Origin: Bacteroidales bacterium
GTDB lineage: Bacteria > Bacteroidota > Bacteroidia > Bacteroidales > P3
Direction of reading: 5' to 3'
NCBI GenBank assembly: GCA_031260565.1
Contig: JAISLH010000019.1
Coordinates: 1 to 59,431 of the forward strand
DNA length: 59,431 bases
Positions 17,563-50,758 of this stretch are shown here, piece after piece; position 1 is the first letter of the stretch, and the number at the start of each line of letters is the position of its first letter. The translations under genes and the position numbers were made by a program. The notes under the pieces are model-generated. The model did no database searches. It had not been told where the DNA came from and saw only the letters and a program-made list of their open reading frames with translations.

Positions 17563-17798
17563 GAAAAGTACATGTACTTCAACTTAAAGTACATGTACTC
17601 CAGCTTAAGGTACATGTACTTCAACTTAAAGTACATGTACTTCAACTTAAAGTGCATGTACTTCAACTTAAAGTACATGTACTCCAGCTTAAAGTACATG
17701 TACTCCAGCTTAAAGTACATGTACTCCAGCTTAAAGTACATGTACTCCAAGTTAAAGTACATGTACTCCAACTTAAAATACACGTACATTAAGTTATA
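17563..17798. repeat. Intergenic 21-bp-period array B (GTACATGTAC core, 11 units)
   Basis: The core GTACATGTAC, or a one- or two-base variant, starts at 17568, 17589, 17610, 17631, 17652, 17673, 17694, 17715, 17736, 17757 and 17778: eleven units exactly 21 bp apart. The core extends to the self-complementary AAGTACATGTACTT; the 7-bp linker alternates between CAACTTA and CCAGCTTA-like forms. Because 21 is a multiple of 3, both strands read as a spurious open frame of 7-residue repeats (MYFNLKY), which I do not consider a gene. Confidence 0.95.
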
Positions 17799-25330: not shown

Positions 25331-25453
25331 ATTGTTGATTTAGTGCAAAAAACTGGCGTAATAAATATTAAACAAAACAAACTTGCGAAATAGACAAAAT
25401 AATGAAAAATTAACCCGTACTTTATGGTGAAAAAATATAAATTATTCTCATAT

Positions 25454-25480
25454 TATTTACATAAAATACTCATCAAAAAT
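25454..25480. repeat. Shared block, copy 1 (ATTTACATAAAATACTCATC)
   Basis: The block reads ATTTACATAAAATACTCATC followed by a run of A. It recurs at 42404 with two changes and, in part (ATACTCATCAAAA), at 44026. In the first two cases it lies on the same side of a 21-bp array and of the 31-codon transcription unit, so it appears to mark the far edge of a composite intergenic element. Function unknown. Confidence 0.6.
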
Positions 25481-25512
25481 GGTGCTTTTTTGGTTTATTT
25501 GGACGAGATTAA

Positions 25513-25633
25513 GTAACAATTTGCCGAAATAAAGCTTTAGGAAAATGAAACAAAGTAACAATTTACTGAAACAAAGCTTTAGAAAATTAAAGTGGCGTTT
25601 TAATTTCTTGAAGTGGCGTTTCATTTTGGCGAA
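25513..25633. repeat. Intergenic 21-bp-period array C (mixed GTAACAATTT / GCTTTAG / GTGGCGTTT cores)
   Basis: Units start at 25513, 25534 and 25555 (each 21 bp), then a 16-bp short unit at 25576, then 25592 and 25613 (21 bp). The first four alternate two cores, GTAACAATTT and GCTTTAGRAAA, each with a GAAAYAAA-type end; the last two are the GTGGCGTTT core seen in arrays A and F-I. It thus joins a local core with the widespread one. Sits directly beside the terminator of the 31-codon unit. Confidence 0.85.
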
Positions 25634-25635
25634 AA

Positions 25636-25670
25636 GATACAAAAATAGGGATAATGTAGCCGATTATCCC
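25636..25670 (-). terminator. Hairpin terminator of the 31-codon unit, copy 1
   Basis: On the minus strand GGGATAAT (25670-25663), a 7-nt loop, ATTATCCC (25655-25648) and then TATTTTTG. Perfect 8-bp stem and a T-rich tail. The same arrangement, with near-identical stem sequence, ends copy 2 at 42632-42664. Confidence 0.75.
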
Positions 25671-25726
25671 AACCAATTAGCATATTAAGTAGTTGTAGCC
25701 TGATTGCAGTATTTTATATGAAGTCA

Positions 25727-25822
25727 TCACGTTTTTAAGACCGAAAAGTGATGTTTTTTTATGATATTATTTTGAAATGAATTTGCAATTTGCATTTTTG
25801 TTATGAAGTATTGTTTTTTCAT
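25727..25822 (-). CDS. 31-residue microprotein, copy 1 of a two-copy family
   Basis: A 32-codon frame (ATG 25822, TGA 25729-25727) too short for ordinary gene finders. It aligns without gaps with the frame at 42721-42816: 15 of 31 residues are identical, including M1, Q4, Y5, T8, Q11, Q17, N19, I21-K22-K23-H24, F26-S27 and K30-T31, and several other positions are conservative (I/F, L/M, N/D). Three identical residues use different codons (Y5, I21, H24). Both copies have a TACCTTTGC promoter, the same 56-nt distance from stop to terminator hairpin, and a repeat array beyond. The product would be basic and soluble. It could instead be a regulatory RNA with a short frame. Confidence 0.5.
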   Translation of the reverse strand: MKKQYFITKMQIANSFQNNIIKKHHFSVLKT

Positions 25823-25882
25823 TGTTAAGATTTCTTTTGTTGATTGTTTATAAAAAATATTTGTTTTTTGGCTTTCGGGTTG

Positions 25883-25914
25883 CAAAGGTACAAAAAAATT
25901 GAAGAACAGACAAT
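25883..25914 (-). promoter_or_regulatory. Bacteroidetes promoter of the 31-codon unit, copy 1
   Basis: On the minus strand TACCTTTG (25890-25883) followed by CAACCC; an ATTG at 25914-25911 lies 20 nt upstream as a weak -33 box. The predicted start is about 54 nt before the ATG at 25822. Confidence 0.65.
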
Positions 25915-29923: not shown

Positions 29924-30070
29924 GGAAAGTGTTCTTTCGGACTCGGAAAGTGTTCTTTCTAACTCGGAAAGTATTCTTTCCAACTCGGAAAGTGTTCTTT
30001 CTAACTCAGAAAGTATTCTTTCTAACTTGAAAAGTGTTCTTTCTAACTTAAAAAGTATTACGTTTAAAGC
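29924..30070. repeat. Intergenic 21-bp-period array D (GAAAGTGTTCTTTC core, 7 units)
   Basis: Units begin at 29924, 29945, 29966, 29987, 30008, 30029 and 30050, each 21 bp. The core GAAAGTGTTCTTTC or GAAAGTATTCTTTC is an inverted repeat (GAAAG/CTTTC); the linker is TAACTCG, drifting to TAACTTA at the right end. The minus strand reads as a false ELERTLS peptide repeat. The array runs to within 20 bp of the SDR start at 30090, and its plus-strand frame stays open into that gene. Confidence 0.93.
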
Positions 30071-34044: not shown

Positions 34045-34200
34045 CTAAGTCCAGACTTGTCTAAAAAAAAGTCCCACTTTTTGGGTAAAAAAGTCGGACT
34101 TTTTTGGGCAAAAAGTGGGACTTTTTTACCCAAAAAGTGGGACTTTTTTTTCAACAAGTCGGCACTTTTGATTATCAAGTACTTACAAAGTGGTAATTTT
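34045..34200. repeat. Intergenic array E, 22-bp period (AAAAAGTGGGACTTTTT core)
   Basis: GTC/GTG core starts at 34049, 34071, 34093, 34115 and 34137 (22 bp steps), then 34158 and 34179 (21 bp steps). Each central unit is an inverted repeat, AAAAAGT-ggg/cgg-ACTTTTT, with a 4-bp GGGT, GGGC or ACCC joint. Degenerate copies (GTCCCTG, TCGGAC) precede it from about 33986. It occupies the space between converging operons. Each unit ends in a T-run, so transcription from either side could be slowed here. Confidence 0.88.
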
Positions 34201-42104: not shown

Positions 42105-42403
42105 ATAATTTTGGGGAAATAATGAAGTTTTTTTTCTTTTTTTTCTTTCCACTTCATTTTGCATAGCCTCTAATCCTTACTATTTTTGTTTTTGAGAAGT
42201 ATTACCTCAGAAGCAAAAAATCTAATTTATCTTGCCGTTGAAGCCTCTTTTTTTTAGATTTTTTCTTCATTTCACCCGCAAAAAGTACTCATTTTAGCAA
42301 AAATTCACAATACCCAAAACGACCTTTTCTATGATTTTTTAGTTGCTTTTGTCTCAAAATTGCGGTCAAAAAGCAGAATAATAATTATACTTTTATTTCA
42401 CAA

Positions 42404-42428
42404 TATTTACATAAAACACTCATTAAAA
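42404..42428. repeat. Shared block, copy 2 (ATTTACATAAAACACTCATT)
   Basis: Differs from the block at 25454 at two positions over 20 bp, followed by an A-run in both. As in copy 1 it lies beyond the 21-bp array on the downstream side of the 31-codon unit. Confidence 0.6.
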
Positions 42429-42562
42429 CCAGCCATTTTTAGCATAAATTTTGTCAAAAAACAGGATAAAAACACCCTTTTTTCACTCTATTTTACTCAT
42501 TTTTCACCTCAATTTTTCCAAAAAAAAGACTGATTTTACCCAAACACAATTTCATCAGAACG

Positions 42563-42625
42563 AAACGCCGTTTCAATTTTCTAAAGTGGCGTTTCGTGAC
42601 GCTGAAACGCCACTTTAATTTTGGC
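42563..42625. repeat. Intergenic 21-bp-period array H (AAACGCC / GTGGCGTTT cores)
   Basis: Three units: AAACGCCGTTTC at 42563, GTGGCGTTTCGTGACGCTG at 42586 and AAACGCCACTTTA at 42605. The linkers AATTTTCTA and GTGACGCTGAA are identical to those of array A, 30 kb away. Ends beside the terminator of the 31-codon unit as array C does. Confidence 0.88.
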
Positions 42626-42631
42626 AAAAAG

Positions 42632-42664
42632 CAAAAAAAGAGGATAAAATATCATATTATCCCC
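42632..42664 (-). terminator. Hairpin terminator of the 31-codon unit, copy 2
   Basis: On the minus strand GGGGATAATAT, short loop, ATTTTATCCT, then a T-run of seven. The stem resembles copy 1 (GGGATAAT / ATTATCC) with G-T pairing; distance to the stop codon is again 56 nt. Confidence 0.7.
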
Positions 42665-42720
42665 ATAAAGCTATATATTGCGTTATTGCAATAAGGTTAC
42701 ATAAAATTTATACAAAAACA

Positions 42721-42816
42721 TCACGTTTTCATCTGCGAAAAGAGGTGTTTTTTAATGAAATTTTGTTGCATTAAATCTGTAAATTGTGATATTGTTTTTT
42801 GATATTGTGCTGTCAT
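42721..42816 (-). CDS. 31-residue microprotein, copy 2
   Basis: ATG 42816 to TGA 42723-42721, exactly the same length as copy 1. Residues conserved with it are M1, Q4, Y5, T8, Q11, Q17, N19, I21-K22-K23-H24, F26-S27, K30-T31; the C-terminal IKKHxFSxxKT is the strongest part. A longer frame reaching 42936 crosses the promoter and is not credible. Promoter TACCTTTG at 42840 leaves a leader of about 20 nt, compared with about 54 in copy 1. The gene lies divergently from the lipoprotein gene at 42945. Could be a peptide or a frame within a small RNA. Confidence 0.5.
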   Translation of the reverse strand: MTAQYQKTISQFTDLMQQNFIKKHLFSQMKT

Positions 42817-42839
42817 AATCTTATTTTTGTTTGAGGGTG

Positions 42840-42847
42840 CAAAGGTA
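42840..42847 (-). promoter_or_regulatory. -7 box of the 31-codon unit, copy 2
   Basis: TACCTTTG then CACCC on the minus strand, the same -7 octamer as copy 1 and with the same surrounding TTTTTTTGTACCTTTGCA. No clear -33 box. Confidence 0.65.
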
Positions 42848-42880: not shown

Positions 42881-42911
42881 TTTGCTAATTCAAAAAACAG
42901 TTGTACTTTTG
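42881..42911 (+). promoter_or_regulatory. Promoter of the lipoprotein pair
   Basis: TTTG (42881-42884), 19-nt spacer, TACTTTTG (42904-42911). Leader of about 27 nt to the ATG at 42945. Divergent from the -7 box at 42840. Confidence 0.82.
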
Positions 42912-50525: not shown

Positions 50526-50758
50526 AAACGCCACTTTAACTTCAGCAAACGCCGTTTTATTTTACCGAAACGCCACTTTAATTTTGTTTGACGTACATCT
50601 AATTTTCGTTTGATGTACATCTAATTTTCATTTGATGTACATCAAACCAAAATGAAACACTGTTTCAATAAATTTAAACGCCATTCTACTAACTTAAAGT
50701 GGCGTTTTGTCAAGTTGTAATAGCATTTGGGTAAAATGTAATAGTGGTTTATGAAAAT
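50526..50758. repeat. Intergenic array I, several cores in one array
   Basis: AAACGCC units at 50526, 50547 and 50568 (21 bp); then GTTTGAYGTACATC units at 50586, 50608 and ATTTGATGTACATC at 50630 (22 bp) with the palindromic core GATGTACATC; then AAACGCCATTC and AAGTGGCGTTTTG around 50675-50700; then GTAATAGCATTT and GTAATAGTGGTTT (21 bp each) near 50715-50745. It places cores of different arrays side by side between the glycosylase and the restriction-modification genes. Confidence 0.88.

Follow-up and report, generated by a model that had tools for sequence, protein, structure and literature searches.

A short transcription unit of which two copies lie in the window (the whole 59,431-nucleotide stretch of Bacteroidales DNA analysed here) was found at 59 loci in its own genome of 2.05 Mb with a 31-residue profile (E down to 5.5e-21). 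On balance, we regard it as a self-contained cassette that now occupies, through multiplication, 59 or more intergenic sites in one species and forms the core of a modular repeat of approximately 600 bp. The seed profile was built from seven loci with complete 31-codon frames, both window copies among them; a DNA search of the same genome gave several partial matches to the unit. The terminator motif of the unit is almost confined to units and four more occurrences lie at contig ends, so that the true count is probably 63 or more. The density of the cassette is about one copy per 32 kb. The earlier note described a two-copy unit and held that an absence of further copies would weaken the claim of a family; the profile places the count at 59 or more.

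The cassette was found in no other genome searched. The same seven-locus profile had no matches in three congeners (other species of the genus), and a wider profile, run on 190 family genomes and 393 order genomes, gave no convincing relative. Four borderline matches in the family (E 0.003-0.009), all partial and one of them within a long ORF, were taken as chance. No match was found in 84,980 GTDB species genomes and IMG/VR with pattern-based searches, which very distant relatives could escape, and tblastn against plasmids and phages gave no cassette match. The covariance model R1, run on 189 family genomes, matched solely in the unit's own genome. Rfam, at gathering as well as loose thresholds, returned nothing relevant to the unit, and the matches in Pfam, NCBIfam and PHROGs were all sub-threshold (SHOCT_2, E = 0.024; a tape-measure PHROG, E = 0.18) and were dismissed. 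The proposed spread of the family through the Bacteroidales was thus not borne out, as every search run, the 393 order genomes included, confines it to one genome.

Both window copies (25640-25914 and 42632-42847) are on the minus strand and consist of the promoter element TACCTTTG, then a frame of 31 codons and, after a further 56 nt, the GGGATAAT/ATTATCCC hairpin, and their peptides are identical at 15 of 31 residues without gaps. The promoter, the frame length, the 56-nt stop-to-terminator spacing and the 15/31 identity were all claimed earlier and are verified on the sequence. In copy 1 the −7 element TACCTTTG, read from the sequence and agreeing with a family-wide TAnnTTTG, is at 25883..25890 (minus strand), followed on the same strand by the microORF of 31 codons (ATG to TGA, MKKQYFITKMQIANSFQNNIIKKHHFSVLKT; 25727..25822), supported by the family profile and stop avoidance, and by the intrinsic terminator GGGATAATCGGCTACATTATCCC (25648..25670), whose stem GGGATAAT...ATTATCCC is the sole conserved helix of the family. 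This microORF is among the divergent family members. A hairpin CATCAC...GTGATG over the end of the copy 1 frame was considered as a second terminator and rejected, as the family has no compensatory changes that keep the helix. Past the terminator lies an array of 21-bp units (25511..25635, no strand assigned), which is a genome-wide intergenic repeat and not specific to the unit, and then the tail segment (25440..25490, minus strand; reverse complement TGATGAGTATTTTATGTAAAT...) at the end of the repeat, where similarity among copies stops at about +470 from the ATG. Copy 2 has the same order on the minus strand: the −7 element TACCTTTG at 42840..42847, again with the family-wide TAnnTTTG, the 31-codon microORF MTAQYQKTISQFTDLMQQNFIKKHLFSQMKT at 42721..42816, supported by the sequence and the family profile, the intrinsic terminator GGGGATAAT...TTATCCTC at 42641..42664, identified by the motif almost confined to units, the palindrome GGCGTTTCAGCGTCACGAAACGCC of the 21-bp array at 42588..42611 (no strand assigned), located by a genome-wide palindrome search, and the tail segment (reverse complement TTTTAATGAGTGTTTTATGTAAATATTG) at 42395..42430, recognized from the sequence and family similarity. 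The 5' segment of copy 2 also holds an outward −7 box, TACTTTTG, on the plus strand at 42904..42911, which would serve the divergent gene starting at approximately 42945.

Across the family, an ATG followed by 30 codons and a stop at the common position is present in 51/59 copies. Premature stops occur in 5/59 (L056, L072, L088, L091 and L092), and L067 is the one frameshift copy of the 59. The distance from the ATG to the end of the terminator is 178-180 nt in 55 of the 56 copies measured. TAnnTTTG is found upstream of the ATG in 56/59 copies, as compared to 17/112 control windows, and is spaced at −31 in 26 copies and at −47 in 23, each spacing being tied to a different 5' segment. Adenine occupies position −3 in 53/59 copies and position −6 likewise in 53/59; an A at −3/−6 promotes initiation in a member of the Bacteroidetes, as measured in Flavobacterium (PMC6847099). 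Relative to the ATG, similarity between copies runs from roughly −140 to roughly +470, and it peaks from the ATG to the terminator. The repeat is thus about 600 bp, intergenic, AT-rich and multicopy, with the 31-codon frame as its sole ORF and no transposase gene inside; past the terminator comes the 21-bp array, which contains the palindrome GGCGTTTCAGCGTCACGAAACGCC, and the tail follows it. The family alignment shows conserved peptide residues at 5-8, 11-18, 21-22 and 26, with TSSQITDLMQQN as an example from the conserved segment, and variable residues at 23-25 and 27-31. The C-terminus, earlier thought to be the best conserved part, instead belongs to those parts of the family that vary most. 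Two copies have unusual structures. In L094 (contig C56, 233-325) other sequence stands in place of the cassette's 5' part and contributes both a TATCTTTG box and a different in-frame ATG, from which a shorter frame starts. In L089 (the first 210 bases of contig C105) the first 25 microORF codons are in frame with the C-terminal part of an apparent ABC-transporter substrate-binding protein, and this fusion at a contig end is either a gene fusion or an assembly chimera.

Judged from the way it has been kept open, the frame is likely translated. Premature stops occur in 5/56 copies versus 39-46 expected when the inferred changes are shuffled along the tree among sites that share a base, whether or not the sites are weighted by their variability, and none of 300-500 simulations gave so low a count; the copies are related and mosaic, with gene conversion, so that counts of this kind are non-independent, and the parsimony mapping is approximate. 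The remaining five frames showed no significant stop deficit in the same simulation. Only one indel, that of L067, falls inside the frame versus at least 8 distinct gap events in the 55 nt past the stop. Variation is almost equal across the three codon positions, and there is no synonymous excess (102 observed versus 108 expected; 10 versus 9.3 in conserved codons). The amino-acid sequence is therefore not visibly protected: the frame appears to be preserved, yet the peptide sequence would be loosely constrained. RNAalifold on the family alignment found no conserved RNA helix beyond the terminator, and no long-range Watson-Crick covariation was found across the family. Because stops and indels are avoided in a frame-specific manner and there is no conserved pairing beyond the terminator, the evidence favours a translated frame over a small RNA. 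The preference for a microprotein voiced earlier is strengthened by this frame-specific preservation, and frame-breaking changes with conserved pairing were not observed. The frame points to a real microprotein, as predicted from these patterns of change.

These results bear on two further readings of the family. In one, which we find unlikely, the unit is a multicopy small regulatory RNA whose conserved blocks function as RNA (antisense or seed) and whose open frame is incidental. The blocks are indeed conserved at all codon positions and also in the 3' stretch past the stop, synonymous changes are not in excess, and a promoter and intrinsic terminator of its own are typical of small RNAs; against this, stops are avoided in the +0 frame only (5 versus 39 expected), the near-absence of indels is limited to the frame, and there is neither a conserved fold except the terminator nor an Rfam match. 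In the other, the dispersed copies encode a family of hypervariable peptides, conserved in the N-terminal part and diversified in the C-terminal part, like precursor-peptide families with many orphan copies. Residues 5-8 and 11-18 are nearly fixed, whereas residues 3, 10, 20, 23-25 and 27-31 vary in multi-nucleotide steps, and non-synonymous changes in the variable codons slightly exceed expectation (278 versus 256) while stops are avoided there. However, synonymous changes are also frequent in these codons (83 of 380 changes) and the untranslated 3' stretch has variable blocks of a similar kind, so that the variability is not clearly protein-related. The neighbours of the units are moreover unrelated genes, with no maturation enzyme or exporter noticed among them, and we consider diversified peptides quite unlikely.

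Quite improbable as well is a non-autonomous transposon, of the classical MITE or the REP-like type, in which a passenger frame still awaits decay. Its many intergenic, AT-rich copies and restriction to one species would suit such an element, as would loci that have the 5' segment and the array without the core (L124, L136 and L130), and BrickBuilt of Porphyromonas gingivalis is comparable in combining a minisatellite with two-way promoter activity (PMC4596501). Terminal inverted repeats were not found, with inverted-end alignment scores equal to those of shuffled controls in 14 copies, and there were no consistent target duplications, as the flank words shared are 5-11 nt long, differ between copies and have imprecise boundaries. 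Neither a Y1_Tnp nor a DDE_Tnp_1 transposase, the two families searched, is present in the genome. The array palindrome recalls REP/RAYT systems, but a match to PF01797 is absent from the genome. At the divergence observed, a passenger frame would be expected to be broken in approximately 39/56 copies. Since inverted ends, target duplications and, in the two families searched, a matching transposase were not found, we do not file the cassette as a MITE, and for the same reasons a mobile-element origin lacks a mechanism. At the leucyl-tRNA-synthetase-like and phosphoglucomutase-like loci in the three congeners the unit is absent and synteny is lost, so that insertion is not datable there. With these alternatives weighed, the unit is most likely a largely selfish, interspersed cassette whose cargo is translated.

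Bacterial interspersed repeats are mostly viewed as non-coding, and the translation of frames contained in them is doubted. Three known systems come closest, each compared here on the passages cited. BrickBuilt is a P. gingivalis MITE with inverted-repeat ends, 23-nt repeats and 19 copies in one strain, for which hypothetical small ORFs are annotated in some copies, with no confirmed protein, and two-way promoter activity is reported (PMC4596501). It resembles the cassette as an intergenic, multicopy, species-restricted Bacteroidales repeat with a leader, short tandem repeats and a tail (PMC4596501), whereas the cassette lacks inverted ends, numbers at least 59 copies and maintains the frame within its promoter-ORF-terminator core. 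BOX elements of Streptococcus pneumoniae are likewise modular interspersed repeats that are transcribed and contain open frames, but those frames are size-dependent and on both strands, and their translation is doubted by the authors, while the cassette frame is on one strand and of fixed length (PMC3049150). The enterobacterial repeats RU-1, RU-2 and RU-3 are small, mobile and intergenic, and their open frames can persist as peptide sequence; these frames are within annotated host gene loci (PMC2759123), in contrast to the cassette frame, a gene that stands by itself between a promoter and a terminator of its own. A promoter-ORF-terminator core with a fixed-length frame open across approximately 60 copies is described in none of the cited passages on BrickBuilt, BOX or RU. 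The roughly 60 copies constitute a natural test, in which the frame has been preserved frame-specifically though it is absent from all family libraries searched. If the frame is translated, it would represent an amplified, species-specific microprotein gene that occurs about once every 32 kb, and would show repeats to be a source of new tiny genes and of portable two-way promoters.

The cassette comprises a Bacteroidales-type promoter, the 31-codon frame, a short 3' untranslated stretch and an intrinsic terminator, and each copy would give an mRNA of approximately 200 nt that is translated into a cytosolic peptide of 31 residues. The upstream neighbour is divergent (head-to-head) in 51/56 copies, taking as neighbour the longest frame within the 800 nt fetched, and the orientation of the downstream neighbour is unbiased. 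In many copies the similarity ends at a TAnnTTTG box that faces outward and lies 128-138 nt ahead of the ATG, which gives the 5' segment the look of a two-way promoter that may supply the promoter of the neighbour, its outward arm driving the adjoining host gene. The terminator would block the cassette transcript from entering the next gene. We propose that insertions upstream of genes are tolerated because read-through is blocked and an outward promoter arm is provided. The upstream genes are unrelated by inspection (leuS-like, pyrH-like, purQ-like, htpG-like, methylase-like and lipoprotein-like, the names being inferred from sequence), and a neighbour-specific regulator or toxin-antitoxin role was rejected because the divergent neighbours have no common function by inspection. 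A broader reading, in which approximately 60 cassettes yield variant 31-residue peptides with a fixed core and a varying C-terminal part, spread in a non-MITE manner, sit head-to-head with unrelated host genes and so add a layer of microprotein expression, or of two-way promoters, across the genome, is speculative and rather doubtful. At L124, L136, L078, L080 and L043, several cassettes or coreless arrays adjoin similar secreted-protein genes, and some copies may thus be co-duplicated with the neighbouring gene.

The 21-bp arrays have a distribution of their own. The palindrome GGCGTTTCAGCGTCACGAAACGCC has 122 matches in the genome with up to 2 mismatches. Of a sample of 20 palindrome loci that lie apart from the known units, 18 lack the core and 2 are truncated units at contig ends, and the coreless loci indicate that the array is an independent repeat present throughout the genome. 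L124 retains the 5' segment, array and tail, and L136 and L130 the 5' segment and array, all three without the core, which is thus separable. Of the suspected link between unit and array, what holds is that nearly all units precede an array; most sampled array loci outside the units have no unit, and the specific link is weak. The congeners contain arrays of like style and different sequence, with a single array match in the congener G003. The window itself holds other tandem arrays of 21-23-bp units with differing sequences, at 17565-17787, 29924-30048, 34065-34169 and 50579-50643.
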